Positions 10,606-63,004 of a stretch of DNA of 64,000 bases are shown here, in pieces. The notes below the pieces were generated by a model, which worked only from the letters and a program-made list of their open reading frames with translations, was not told where the DNA came from and ran no database searches. The stretch is taken from the NCBI GenBank assembly GCA_023255735.1, contig JAGDVP010000001.1, positions 1 to 64,000 on the forward strand. Direction: 5' to 3'. The translations under genes were made by a program, and so were the position numbers. This DNA comes from Halothiobacillus sp. Its GTDB lineage: Bacteria > Pseudomonadota > Gammaproteobacteria > Halothiobacillales > Halothiobacillaceae. Positions within the stretch are counted from its first letter, which is position 1, and every line of letters begins with the position of its first letter.

Positions 10606-12063
10606 TTAGCTTGGGAACGGGTCGCTGAACGTTCGCCAAGCGCTGGAGCCCAGTTGCATTTCGGCATCATTGAGCAAACAGGCATCAAGCCTCGCCCGCA
10701 GCGCTGTCTCATCCATTTCCATGCCAATTAGCACCAGTTCTTGCCGTCGGTCGCCATATTCAGGGTGCCAATGTTTTGCAAGATGTACGCGGAAATCTTC
10801 ATCGTCTGGCCATTTGCTTTGATCGACCGCGCTCCACCAAAGGCCAGCCTTGCCATAGCGCGCAGCCGCCCCCGCTTGACTCCAGGAACCCGCCTCATTA
10901 AAGCGGCTGGCCAACCAATACAACCCCTTAGAGCGCACCACCCCGGGCCAAGGTTCTTGTACCAAAGCCCAAAAGCGCTGCGGGTGAAAAGGCCGATCCG
11001 CACGGTACACAAAGCTTGTGATGCCGTATTCCTCGGTTTCGGGCACATGCGAGCCGCGCAGCTCTTGCAACCAGCCGGGCGCTTGCGCCGCCTGCTCAAA
11101 ATCAAACAGCCCCGTACCCAAAACCCGATCAAGCGGCACTTGGCCAAATTGTGCCCGCTCAATGCGCGCCCGTGGATTCAGTGCACGCAGTATTCCTTCA
11201 AGGCGCTGCAGATCTTCTGCGCTAACCATGTCTGCCTTGTTGATGACCAACACATCACAAAATTCGATTTGCTCAATCAGCAGATCGACCACACTTCGTG
11301 CATCATCCTCGCCCAGCGATTCGCCGCGATCTTGTAAAAAGTCTTGCGAGCTATAATCGCGCAAAAAATTAAACGCATCGACTACGGTCACCATCGTGTC
11401 CAAACGTGCAATCTGCGACAAGGAAATGCCGGTTTCATCTTCAAACGTGAAGGTTTCAGCCACGGGTAGCGGTTCGGAAATTCCGGTTGATTCAATCACC
11501 AGGTGATCAAATCGCCCCTCATGGGCGAGTTTCGAAACTTCTGTTAGTAAGTCCTCGCGCAAGGTGCAGCAAATGCAGCCATTGCTCATTTCTACGAGTT
11601 TTTCCTCGGTGCGGGATAGCGCAGCACCGCCTTCGCGAATTAAATTGGCATCGACATTGACCTCGCTCATATCGTTCACAATCACGGCCACCCGCTGGCC
11701 TTCCCGATTATGCAAAATATGATTGAGGAGCGTGGTTTTGCCGGCGCCTAAAAAGCCAGAGAGTACCGTGACGGGTAAGCGGTTGGGTTGCATGGATTTT
11801 TTCTCCAAAGAAAGCGATGAAGTGTTTAGGTTGGGATGCCGTGTGGGCGGCGGTGGGGGAACGGGGTCAAACCCGCCGGGATGCCAGGGGTGGCAGCGCA
11901 ATATTCGGCGTGCCGCGAGCCAGCTCCCGCGCAGGGCGCCGTGTGCCTGTAGCGCCTCAAGGGCATATTGCGAACAGCTGGGATAAAAACGACAAGATGA
12001 GCCCATAACCGGGCTTAGAATGAGCTGGTAGGCACGCACGCCGCCCATTAGCAAGCGTTTCAT
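10606..12063 (-). CDS. In-frame fusion: YidD N-terminal domain joined to COG0523 metallochaperone GTPase
   Basis: N-terminus [38 protein letters not shown]...[14 protein letters not shown] is YidD; from residue 91 [27 protein letters not shown]...[13 protein letters not shown] is COG0523 (Walker A, CxCC). No stop codon between them. Confidence 0.88.
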
Positions 12064-12500
12064 GCGGTGGCACCGTGCGCGGGTGTGATTGCCGGTGGCG
12101 ATGCAATCACCTCAATAAACTCATCGCGCACCGCGTTATAAAAGCAGTTGGGGCGGCCGGTATGACAAGCAGGACCAATTTGATCAACAAGAAGCAATAC
12201 CGCATCGCCATCGCAATCAAGACGCGCTTCGATCAAGGTTTGCTGATGCCCCGAAGTTTCGCCTTTGCGCCACAACGCTTGGCGTGTGCGCGACCAATAG
12301 CATACGCGGCGAGTGATTAGGGTTTCTTGCAGCGCGGCACGGTTCATCCACGCCAGCATGAGTACCTCGCGCGAATCGTATTGCTGCGCAATGGCCGTAA
12401 TTAAGCCGGATGTATTCCACGCCACGCCATCCAGCACATCCATTAATGGCCGGCGCGCACCGAGTGACAGCTTTTCTAATTCGAGAAAGACAGCAGACAT
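12060..12500 (-). CDS. hisI: Phosphoribosyl-AMP cyclohydrolase (HisI; candidate zinc-regulon copy)
   Basis: [57 protein letters not shown]; start refined to ATG 12500 with AGGGGG SD; 4-nt overlap with the downstream yidD fusion. Confidence 0.9.
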
Positions 12501-12534
12501 CGGCAACCCCCTGGCGGTGAAATCCTGCATTTGA

Positions 12535-12557
12535 GCAATGTTATATTATAACACTCT
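12535..12557 (-). promoter_or_regulatory. Zur-box-like operator upstream of hisI
   Basis: Perfect 7-1-7 palindrome TGTTATA-T-TATAACA (12539-12553); 18/22 positions match the gammaproteobacterial Zur consensus GAAATGTTATANTATAACATTTC (consensus from memory); 35 nt before the hisI ATG. Confidence 0.8.
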
Positions 12558-58839: not shown

Positions 58840-60675
58840 ATGCCGCTTGATAAAAAATCCTCGCCCCGCATTGTTCGGCGTGCGGTGCCGCCCATCCCCG
58901 CCGAGATGGCCTCATTTAACCCAAATCTTGCCGCGATTTTGGTCAACCGAGGTATCACCATGCCGCAGCAATTAGATGCGAGCCTTAACTTTTTGCTGCC
59001 AACCGCCCAGTTGCCGGGCATAGACGCCGCAGCCGCTCTTATCGCAGAAGCCCTGCAAGCCCAAGCCCACATTTTAATCGTGGGCGATTTTGATGCCGAT
59101 GGCGCCACCGCCACCGCCCTCTGTGTGCGCGGCTTGCAGGCGATGGGTGCGCAGCATGTGGCTTATACCCTGCCCGATCGGGCACGCCATGGTTACGGCT
59201 TATCACCCGCAGTGTTGCGTGATTGGCTGGCGCAAGCCGATGCGCCGCCTAGTTTAATCATAACGGTTGATAACGGCATTAGCGCCTTTGCCGGGGTTGC
59301 TGCAGCACGGGCTTTGGGCGCACGGGTTGTGATTACCGATCATCATTTACCCGGGGATGCGCTGCCGCCGGCCTGTGCGATTGTGAACCCCAATTTAGCC
59401 GATTCGCTATTTGCATCCAAAGCCTTGGCCGGCGTGGGCGTGGCGTTTTATGTGCTGGCGGCGGTGCGGGAAAAGCTCACTGCGCAGGGTTGGTTTACCC
59501 GCGAAAGGCCGCGGCCTAATCTTGCCCAATGGCTGGATTTAGTCGCGGTGGGTACCGTGGCCGATGTGGTGGCGCTCGATGACAACAACCGCCGCCTCGT
59601 AGCGCAAGGGCTTGAGCGCATTCGCGCGCTGCACAGCGTGCCGGGTATTTCTGCCCTGTTCGCCGTGGCAGGCAAAGACCCACGCCATGCTACCAGCCAA
59701 GATTTAGGTTTTGTGGTGGGGCCGCGCTTAAATGCGGCGGGCAGGCTTATAGACATGCGCATTGGGGTGGCGTGTTTGCTGGCTGATGACCCCGCCGAGG
59801 CGCGGCGTTTAGCGCTTATGTTGAATGAAATTAACCAAGATCGGCGCGCAATCGAACAAGACATGCTGTATCGGCTGCAAAAAAGTGGCCAATCAGAGGC
59901 TATCAATGAGCTGAATATCCCGCGTCCCACGCATCCGGCTGATTGGGTGCTGTTTGATGTAACCTTTCATCAAGGGGTGATCGGCATTGTCGCGGGGCGC
60001 TTAAAGGAGCGTTGGCAACGGCCGGTATTTGTGTTCGCCCCTGAAGATGTAATGGCGGACACGCAGCCAACTATGCCACCAGATGCAAGGCTTAAAGCCT
60101 CGGGGCGCTCGATTGCGGGGATTCATCTGCGCGATGTGCTAGTGTCCATGGCAACCCGCGCACCGGATTTGATGCTGGCTTTTGGCGGACACGCGATGGC
60201 CGCCGGGTTAAGCCTTGAGTACCGTAACCTACCCAAGTTTCGCGCGCTTTTTGCAGAAGAAATGGCGAAATACGCCTCGCAGCTGCCTGATGCCGCAGTA
60301 ATTTGGTCCGATGGTGAATTAAGTGCGCTTGAGCTCACGCCACAGTTCGCCCAAACCCTGCACGCCAGCACGCCTTGGGGAACCGATTGCCCCGAACCCC
60401 TGTTCGATAACGCGTTTGAAGTGATCGAACGCATCCCGCTCAAAGAGGGGCAACACTGGCGGCTAAGCCTGCGCCTACTCACTCGGCAGCCACAAAACAC
60501 CACCGCATCGTTTGCACAGGTACCGGCAGAACCGATTGCCGCCATTTGGTTCGGCATTGGCGATCAACTGCCGCCGGGTCGTTTCTGGCATTTAGCTTAT
60601 CGCCTCGGCATGAATTACTTTCGTGGGCAAGAAACGCTGCAATTGATGGTGGTCAGCGGCGCGGCTTGCAAATAG
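58840..60675 (+). CDS. recJ: Single-stranded-DNA-specific exonuclease RecJ
   Basis: ILIVGDFDADGATATALCVRGL, VVITDHHLPG, GPRLNAAGRL, AFGGHAMAAGLSL. Confidence 0.95.
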   Translation: MPLDKKSSPRIVRRAVPPIPAEMASFNPNLAAILVNRGITMPQQLDASLNFLLPTAQLPGIDAAAALIAEALQAQAHILIVGDFDADGATATALCVRGLQAMGAQHVAYTLPDRARHGYGLSPAVLRDWLAQADAPPSLIITVDNGISAFAGVAAARALGARVVITDHHLPGDALPPACAIVNPNLADSLFASKALAGVGVAFYVLAAVREKLTAQGWFTRERPRPNLAQWLDLVAVGTVADVVALDDNNRRLVAQGLERIRALHSVPGISALFAVAGKDPRHATSQDLGFVVGPRLNAAGRLIDMRIGVACLLADDPAEARRLALMLNEINQDRRAIEQDMLYRLQKSGQSEAINELNIPRPTHPADWVLFDVTFHQGVIGIVAGRLKERWQRPVFVFAPEDVMADTQPTMPPDARLKASGRSIAGIHLRDVLVSMATRAPDLMLAFGGHAMAAGLSLEYRNLPKFRALFAEEMAKYASQLPDAAVIWSDGELSALELTPQFAQTLHASTPWGTDCPEPLFDNAFEVIERIPLKEGQHWRLSLRLLTRQPQNTTASFAQVPAEPIAAIWFGIGDQLPPGRFWHLAYRLGMNYFRGQETLQLMVVSGAACK

Positions 60676-60697
60676 ATATGTTATTACATACCATCTA
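60675..60697 (+). promoter_or_regulatory. Candidate second Zur-like operator upstream of the iota-CA-like gene
   Basis: GATATGTTATTACATACCATCTA matches GAAATGTTATANTATAACATTTC at 16/22 positions by hand; AT-rich context. Confidence 0.35.
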
Positions 60698-60784: not shown

Positions 60785-61384
60785 ATGAAGCGTACTTTGA
60801 TCAAAGTAGCAACTTTTGGGCTTGTATTGGCGTTGGGCGTAAATGGGGCAGTGTATGCAACGACTCAGGAATCTGTGCCCACGGCGTCAACCGCAAAACT
60901 GGGCAAGCATCATGCTCAACCAATCACGGTTGAGGATGTACTACAGGCGCAAAAAGAGTGGGGAGATGGCATCGTTGAGATCGGTAAAATTTTTACGGCG
61001 GGTGGCGATTACAAAGCAGCAGCAAGCAAATTTATCGACCATTATTACGCTTATGGTGATGGAAAAGTTTTATTTAAGCCCACCCGTGCAGCGGCTGATC
61101 AATTTCGTGAAACCAAAGAAGGTGCCTTGTCTTACTTTGTAACAGGTATTGATAAGGAAGATCATGGATTCGCGATTCAGCCTTGGAGCAAAGTCCGGTT
61201 TGAGAACTCAGATGTTGATATTGAAAATGGTGATGCAATTGCGTTGGGTAATTACTTTTTTACCGATGCAAAAACCAATGAAGAAGTAAAAGTGGAGTTT
61301 ACCTTTGGTTATAAACGCGCCAAAGATGGCCATTTAGAAATATTCCTGCACCATTCGTCTATTCCTTATCAAGAGGCACATTAA
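60785..61384 (+). CDS. Secreted iota-class carbonic-anhydrase-like protein (COG4337 / CaMKII-association-domain fold)
   Basis: Signal peptide MKRTLIKVATFGLVLALGVNGAVYA; KVLFKPTRAAADQFRETKEGALSYFVTG, GFAIQPWSKVRFEN, ALGNYFFTD, VEFTFGYKR, C-terminal LHHSSIPY. SD ctggag before ATG. Confidence 0.6.
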   Translation: MKRTLIKVATFGLVLALGVNGAVYATTQESVPTASTAKLGKHHAQPITVEDVLQAQKEWGDGIVEIGKIFTAGGDYKAAASKFIDHYYAYGDGKVLFKPTRAAADQFRETKEGALSYFVTGIDKEDHGFAIQPWSKVRFENSDVDIENGDAIALGNYFFTDAKTNEEVKVEFTFGYKRAKDGHLEIFLHHSSIPYQEAH

Positions 61385-61525: not shown

Positions 61526-63004
61526 TTAACCGTTGGTATACAACCAATCGAGAATGGCATCTTGCACGCGCGAGCCGCCGCCGTTTTGTACATTGGGTTC
61601 ATTTTGCAAAATCACCACCACATACCGCCGCCCTGATTCAGTGAGAATATACCCCGCGCCGGCGCGCACATCGCGCAGAGTGCCGGTTTTAAGGTGAATC
61701 ATGCCGCGAGCCGCTTCGCCTTTCATGCGTTTGCGCATGGTGCCATCAATGCCGGCGATGGGGAGGGATGCCATCAGCTCCGGCATGGTAGGGCTATCCC
61801 AGGCATAGCGCAAAAGCTGCCCCATTTCGCGCGGGCTGATGCGGTCTTTGCGCGAGAGCCCTGAGCCGTTTTCAATATCAAAGCCCGGCCAGTTAAACCC
61901 TTGGCGTTTAAGCCAGCCATCGATAGCCATTTTGGATTTAAGCAGGGTGCCCGGCGCGCCCTCGAGCTCCGCGCCAATGGTCAGGAAAATTTGCCGCGCC
62001 ATGAGGTTGTTTGACCATTTATTTTGCAGATACAAATACTGAGTTAAATTTTCAGAATTGTGCTGCGCTAAAAATACTGCGTTTTTGGGTACGAGGCCTT
62101 CGCTCCAGCTGCCATCAATTTTGCCGCCTTGCTGCGCAAACAGATGCACGAATGCCGCATAAAAGGCATCGTTGGCATTGCCGGCGACCAAGTAATATTG
62201 ATCGGGTTGGCATTCGGTACTGATGGTGCCGGTAATATTTAAGGTAGGGGTGTTGGTATCTGAATTTAAAACGGCAATAGCAGGCTGGTTGTTTTTGCCG
62301 CTGCAATCGCCTTTGTTGAGCTTGATGTCGTTGTTTACGGTTAAGTTTTGATTGGGCGGCCAGGCTTTAACAATGGGCCCTTTGCCGGCTTGATCGGGCG
62401 GGGCGATCAGCACGCGGGTGGCTCTATTATCGAGCAGCAGGGCTTGCGGTAGGGCGTTGTAGACGCGCTCAGGGTGGCCATCAAACTCGCTCGGGTCGGC
62501 CGGTCCCGGATCAAAATAGCTGTTATCGAGCACGAGCTTGCCGGTAATTTGCTGAATGCCTAAATCATGAATTTGCCGGATTAAATCCCACAAATCTTCG
62601 CTGCGAAACCATGGGTCGCCCACGCCTTTAATGTATAAATTGCCGCGAATCACCCCGTTGACAGGCAGGGCATCGGCATAGACCCGGGTCGGCCATTGAT
62701 AGTTTGAGCCGAGCACATCCAACGCCACAACCGAGGTAACGAGTTTCATGACCGAAGCGGGGTTGAACAAATCATCGGGCAGGTGAGTGAGCAGGGGTTT
62801 GTTGCTATCAACCGCCTGCACCCAAATGCCTAAGTCATCTAGATTGAGTTTTTGTTTTTTGAGCGCATCCAGCACGCTGGTGGGGATGGCGGCTTCGGCG
62901 GCATAGAGCGCAGGCGCAAAAATAACAAGAGAACAAGCCAGCGCACACATGACAATAAGACGCAAAAATGGCTGAAAAACTCGGGGCATAAGGGTGCTCA
63001 GCAA
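61526..63004 (-). CDS. dacB: D-alanyl-D-alanine carboxypeptidase/endopeptidase (PBP4 family)
   Basis: FNPASVMKLVTS (SxxK), ENGSGLSRKDRIS, HLKTGTLRDVRAGAGY (KTG); signal peptide. Confidence 0.93.
   Translation of the reverse strand: MLSTLMPRVFQPFLRLIVMCALACSLVIFAPALYAAEAAIPTSVLDALKKQKLNLDDLGIWVQAVDSNKPLLTHLPDDLFNPASVMKLVTSVVALDVLGSNYQWPTRVYADALPVNGVIRGNLYIKGVGDPWFRSEDLWDLIRQIHDLGIQQITGKLVLDNSYFDPGPADPSEFDGHPERVYNALPQALLLDNRATRVLIAPPDQAGKGPIVKAWPPNQNLTVNNDIKLNKGDCSGKNNQPAIAVLNSDTNTPTLNITGTISTECQPDQYYLVAGNANDAFYAAFVHLFAQQGGKIDGSWSEGLVPKNAVFLAQHNSENLTQYLYLQNKWSNNLMARQIFLTIGAELEGAPGTLLKSKMAIDGWLKRQGFNWPGFDIENGSGLSRKDRISPREMGQLLRYAWDSPTMPELMASLPIAGIDGTMRKRMKGEAARGMIHLKTGTLRDVRAGAGYILTESGRRYVVVILQNEPNVQNGGGSRVQDAILDWLYTNG

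Follow-up and report, generated by a model that had tools for sequence, protein, structure and literature searches.

The first reports of metal-free carbonic anhydrases (CAs) date from 2021. In all2909 of Anabaena/Nostoc, alanine at Thr106, Tyr124, His197, or Ser199 abolishes activity and Lys180 is dispensable; in a domain of the Bigelowiella enzyme, Thr486 and Tyr503 are essential, and the His and Ser mutants show four-fold and eight-fold losses, respectively (PMC8132391). The characterized COG4337 enzymes show hydration and little dehydration (PMC8132391), and COG4875-type iota-CAs are reported to be metal-dependent (PMC8425729, PMC8132391).

The window—i.e. the whole 64-kb stretch of DNA analyzed here—carries a gene that very probably encodes an exported single-domain iota-CA of the COG4337 (metal-independent) branch, aiding periplasmic CO2/bicarbonate equilibration in a RuBisCO-bearing host. 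The best PDB score belongs to Bigelowiella natans Bn86287 (7C5X/7C5Y), whose first domain is ~53% identical to the window protein and has the same active site. Identity to all2909 (7C5V/7C5W) is 42%, and the pocket Lys180 that is dispensable there corresponds to Phe172 in the window protein.

Gene, export and origin

The gene, its predicted export signal and its neighbors are as follows.
60785..61384, + strand: probable COG4337 iota-CA gene, 199 aa (homology, alignment, fold)
60785..60859, + strand: predicted signal peptide MKRTLIKVATFGLVLALGVNGAVYA with its cleavage site following AVYA (sequence reading, hydropathy, unordered N-terminus in the model)
58840..60675, + strand: recJ, on the left; in sister species that lack the CA gene it is next to dacB
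61526..63004, - strand: dacB-like D-Ala-D-Ala carboxypeptidase, right flank, convergent, named from sequence only

The reading frame runs from an ATG start to a TAA stop without internal stops, and its product comprises a signal peptide and a single COG4337 domain. An earlier note had proposed an iota-class COG4337 protein from a set of sequence blocks, all of which are found in the 199 residues (FKPTRAA, FRETKEGALSYF, GFAIQPWSKVRFEN, ALGNYFFTD, VEFTFGYK, and HHSSIPY), and had made the proposal depend on a significant match to that group. Such matches are present and span the ~160-aa domain: phmmer against the PDB returns 7c5x (E = 1.9e-120, its three domains scoring 133–145 bits each) and 7c5v (E = 6.7e-29), both iota-CAs, and no other strong match. 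Together with the active-site residues and predicted fold described below, these data support the proposed identity. The NCBIfam model NF047901, "metal-independent carbonic anhydrase", gives a hit of 114.5 bits (E = 4e-33), below the curated cut-off of 350 bits of this narrow equivalog model, so that the protein is homologous to its members but is not filed under it. In a Pfam search, no family scored above its cut-off.

The HisI (phosphoribosyl-AMP cyclohydrolase) profile has no match to the window protein in Pfam or NCBIfam. Misannotation of homologs under that name, anticipated in the earlier note, does occur: of 25 annotated plasmid homologs, 10 are called "phosphoribosyl-AMP cyclohydrolase" and the other 15 "hypothetical protein". 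A true hisI lies close to the COG4337 gene in Phaeobacter and Thioclava, and this proximity may be the source of the misnaming.

The N-terminus, MKRTLIKVATFGLVLALGVNGAVYA followed by TT, reads as a basic start, a hydrophobic core, and an A-x-A end, with a hydropathy maximum of 2.41 over 12 residues. The protein, called secreted in the earlier note, is thus likely exported as judged from these features, and sequence and context together point to a periplasmic role.

Among 10 genomes of the genus, only the window's own carries a COG4337 gene. In three sister species (G003, G005, and G007), a gap of 53–75 nt with nothing in it separates the ends of the recJ and dacB alignments, and no COG4337 copy was found elsewhere in these genomes. 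The gene region has a GC content of 41–46%, vs 52–60% in most flanking stretches. Given the empty junction in three sisters and the AT-rich gene, a recent lateral gain is likely; repeated loss is the less probable alternative, with which it would agree that members of the same family (G010, G015, and G017) carry homologs, 62–68% identical to the window protein. These homologs are also its nearest relatives by path in the tree, although the node that groups them, the window protein, a Rhodobacter MAG, and B. natans is weakly supported (89/95). Phage-borne COG4337 copies were looked for and none was found. Plasmids from two different genera, Klebsiella pneumoniae (L109) and Stutzerimonas (L112), carry COG4337 genes that are nearly identical, encode a signal peptide, have an IS nearby, and are annotated as hypothetical.

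Active site, fold and proposed chemistry

Residue equivalences to all2909, counted through the alignment, are listed below.
61082..61084, + strand: Thr100, equivalent to catalytic Thr106, whose Ala mutant is inactive; invariant in 34/34 sequences
61133..61135, + strand: Tyr117, equivalent to catalytic Tyr124, the proposed proton shuttle
61169..61171, + strand: Phe129, equivalent to Phe138 of the proposed CO2 pocket
61349..61351, + strand: His189, equivalent to His197; kept in 33/34 sequences
61355..61357, + strand: Ser191, equivalent to Ser199

The Thr/Tyr/His/Ser pocket expected from characterized iota-CAs is therefore present (T100, Y117, H189, and S191), as is the C-terminal HHSS of COG4337 iota-CAs. 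In an alignment of 34 homologs, the Thr, Tyr, Phe, and first Ser are invariant, and the His is absent from a single sequence.

An AlphaFold model, built from an input alignment of the window protein and the fetched loci only, has a mean pLDDT of 79, held down by 41 unordered N-terminal residues; residues 51–190 mostly reach 90–98 by block. The model contains helices at 49–71, 76–87, and 111–119 and four long strands. In this prediction the protein is a cone-shaped barrel built of three helices and an antiparallel set of four strands, the arrangement that marks COG4337. In the fold comparison called for in the earlier note, the predicted model superposes on the solved COG4337 iota-CAs: the top five Foldseek hits are 7c5x, 7c5y, and 7c5v entries (rmsd 1.4–2.1 Å), followed by generic NTF2-like structures at ~4 Å or worse.

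By analogy with the characterized relatives, the window protein would be catalytic, would share their mechanism, and would act independently of metal. After export and removal of the signal peptide, a cone-shaped alpha+beta barrel of ~155 residues would bind water and CO2, with Thr100, Tyr117, and Ser191 deprotonating the water and Phe129 lining the CO2 side of the pocket. The proton would pass out via Tyr117 and bicarbonate would be released, with no need for a metal. The enzyme may in this way speed up periplasmic CO2/bicarbonate equilibration, as a complement to the carboxysomal CsoSCA inside the cell and to the DAB inorganic-carbon pump. The little dehydration seen with characterized COG4337 enzymes is odd for an equilibrating CA and speaks against this explanation.

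Host carbon metabolism

The host assembly, 2.06 Mb in 29 contigs with a completeness of about 94%, encodes two RuBisCO large subunits, CsoS2, CsoSCA, and one DabA. No alpha-CA or Pro_CA-type beta-CA was found in this ~94% complete assembly or in nine other genomes of the genus. The central-carbon genes named in the earlier note (tkt-gap-pgk-pyk-fba) are found in the window, their reading frames having been read by eye. The argument from an autotrophic host that was built on them is plausible locally, given the host RuBisCO, CsoSCA, and DabA, and fails as a general rule. Specifically, in a sample of 369 Gammaproteobacteria, COG4337 occurs in 13 genomes and RuBisCO in 187, the window's genome being the only one with both. 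RuBisCO is thus found in 1 of 13 COG4337 carriers vs 186 of 356 noncarriers (Fisher P = 0.001 for depletion, phylogeny ignored). A class-level link between COG4337 and autotrophy was accordingly rejected, and because COG4337 does not track RuBisCO in Gammaproteobacteria, the autotrophy argument is weak. Within the family, alpha-CA and iota-CA do not overlap in any genome, with carriers too few to weigh (four iota, three alpha).

Elsewhere in the host, a carboxysome operon (L077:7255-10719, contig C4) contains csoS2-csoSCA with dab genes downstream, a LysR-type regulator gene in front, and no RuBisCO genes. Both RuBisCO large-subunit genes lie on contig C29 (L052:6167-17666) with cbbQ/cbbO-like neighbors. 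This arrangement differs from that of G009, in which RuBisCO and CsoSCA are ~4 kb apart.

COG4337 neighborhoods, alternative roles and known systems

We compared the neighborhoods of 48 COG4337 loci, a small set used without phylogenetic correction. In seven of them, an unexported COG4337 gene lies amid zinc-starvation genes, its partners being COG0523 GTPases, an extra hisI or thrS, pyrC-like genes, DUF1826, a znu transporter, and a Fur-type repressor.
G372b: COG0523, pyrC-like gene, Fur family gene, iota-CA gene; box 42 nt upstream
Sagittula: two COG0523 genes, iota-CA gene, DUF1826, znu, repressor
Phaeobacter: hisI, COG0523, thrS, iota-CA gene, DUF1826
Thioclava: thrS fragment, iota-CA gene, hisI
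Paracoccus seriniphilus, Sphingomonas, and Tritonibacter: unexported COG4337 gene in a Zur-type cluster

The gene types of these clusters have been assigned to Zur regulons, with the hypothesis of replacement enzymes that use another metal or none; gamma-CA was named there and COG4337 was not (Haas et al. 2009, PMC2770081). The presence of COG4337 relatives in such clusters suggests that some members spare zinc. The window itself contains a zinc-starvation operon, hisI-zigA (10606-12555), with a perfect box, and a weaker site in front of the CA gene.
10606..12063, - strand: ZigA-type COG0523 zinc metallochaperone GTPase (NF038288, 690 bits, cut-off 600)
12060..12530, - strand: hisI, true phosphoribosyl-AMP cyclohydrolase (NF000768, 159.6 bits)
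12539..12553, unstranded: perfect Zur-type palindrome TGTTATATTATAACA, preceding hisI-zigA
60679..60693, + strand: weak Zur-box-like site TGTTATTACATACCA, differing from TGTTATANTATAACA at 3 positions, ~92 nt before the start codon
The zigA reading frame as called has YidD fused at its N-terminus (TIGR00278).

Exported forms keep different company. Nine exported COG4337 genes adjoin an OmpR-type response regulator, beside which a sensor kinase was read in eight cases. Seven of these eight kinases are similar outside the kinase core as well, and many pairs can be aligned over almost their full length at 29–47% identity or more, whereas decoy kinases match them in the core only; the kinase of the Rhodobacter MAG is the exception. 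The shared N-terminal sensor region is found in L083, L098, L100, L102, L107, L108, and L113, and the kinase family occurs in both Alpha- and Gammaproteobacteria, with gene orientation varying between loci. The idea that all exported genes have one and the same two-component system nearby was considered and rejected, as the kinases of Asticcacaulis, G145, G372a, and the Rhodobacter MAG differ. Signal peptides split the two sets completely (0/7 in the zinc group, 9/9 in the sensor group, the latter count including Agrobacterium rubi, for which a start codon further upstream than the annotated start was used). Two exported proteins (L083:8004-9008 and L086:7210-7908) have lipobox-like LLSGC and MVSGC motifs and are probably lipoproteins.

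In two members of a sister genus in the same family (G015 and G017), the exported iota-CA gene is divergent from a gene for a SulP transporter (Sulfate_transp + STAS).
L078:6056-8333, divergent: iota-CA/SulP pair
L079:5048-7390, divergent: iota-CA/SulP pair
The L079 iota-CA has a twin-arginine-like signal (MNRRAFLQ). In G165, whose COG4337 member is unexported, a SulP gene is also close by, at a distance of two genes. The window gene has no zinc-cluster, sensor-kinase, or SulP neighbor.

These neighborhoods bear on what the window protein does. One possible, though doubtful, reading is that it spares zinc—i.e. that it is a Zur-repressed enzyme made when zinc is scarce, replacing zinc-dependent CA activity. 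Unexported COG4337 genes do sit inside Zur-type clusters at seven loci, and the exact GTTAYRNYRTAAC occurs at five of these vs 1 of 41 others (P = 7e-5, for loci that were sorted by gene content and are phylogenetically nonindependent), the single other locus being this window's hisI-zigA. Within the 64 kb, only two sites have 3 or fewer mismatches to TGTTATANTATAACA, namely the perfect one at hisI-zigA and the one ~92 nt before the CA gene. The chance of such a 3-mismatch site is ~0.5% when judged against other parts of the window and 2.5% when the upstream bases are shuffled, which makes it suggestive, not proof, and near the gene there is no exact or 1-mismatch GTTAYRNYRTAAC. Against this reading, the members of zinc clusters all lack the signal peptide that the window protein has, no zinc gene adjoins its 3-mismatch site, and the near relatives G010, G015, and G017 are without a box. 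The broader proposal of a Zur box general to COG4337 promoters was rejected, the best upstream site in most loci being no better than chance.

Less probable still is that the enzyme mainly handles acid from extracytoplasmic sulfur oxidation, ahead of any part in carbon supply. The host resembles an acid-producing sulfur oxidizer, judging from its family, a periplasmic CA would fit, and most COG4337 carriers in the class sample are without RuBisCO. However, such buffering requires conversion of HCO3- to CO2, which characterized COG4337 enzymes barely catalyze, and no acid-stress genes adjoin the window gene. A noncatalytic NTF2-like binding protein that has retained the fold is very improbable: NTF2-like folds have many functions and generic ones rank after the CAs in Foldseek, but every residue important by mutagenesis is retained in the window protein, and Thr, Tyr, Phe, and the first Ser are conserved in all 34 sequences. 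An exported iota-CA that serves periplasmic CO2/bicarbonate equilibration is the reading we prefer, and the SulP anion transporter beside the exported homologs of G015 and G017 counts in its favor.

Taking the loci together, we tentatively envisage two COG4337 groups, one unexported, under Zur, and zinc-sparing, taking over from zinc CAs when zinc runs short, the other exported and either controlled by its own conserved two-component system or paired with a SulP anion transporter; the window gene might then be an exported member, laterally acquired by a carboxysome-bearing sulfur oxidizer and under weak Zur control. In the literature searched, consisting mostly of nonsubscription papers, papers on COG4337 were not linked to Zur or DUF1826, so the zinc and sensor-kinase neighborhoods may be unreported. 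They make the proposal that these enzymes serve in metal-poor settings testable, the expectation being that the unexported group is induced when zinc is depleted or zur deleted. Family membership is ordinary in itself; interest attaches to the link with zinc sparing. In addition, a carboxysome-bearing genus with an exported CA in one species and none in its close sisters offers a natural comparison for the contribution of a periplasmic CA.

As an enzyme, the window protein is a further member of an already known family. Bn86287 comes from a eukaryotic alga and has three tandem domains, whereas the window protein has one domain and a bacterial signal peptide. With all2909 it shares a single-domain build, similar length, and the same active site (1.4–1.5 Å in the fold comparison). 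With COG4875-type iota-CAs (LCIP63, BteCA-iota, and Xanthomonas 3H51), it has the C-terminal HHSS and the fold in common, and only marginal sequence similarity (3h51, E = 0.35). Thiomicrospira is reported to have a carboxysomal iota-CA in place of CsoSCA (cited in PMC12628692). Both are cases of an iota-class CA in a sulfur chemolithoautotroph, but the Thiomicrospira enzyme resides inside carboxysomes, whereas the host of the window has CsoSCA and its iota-CA carries a signal peptide.
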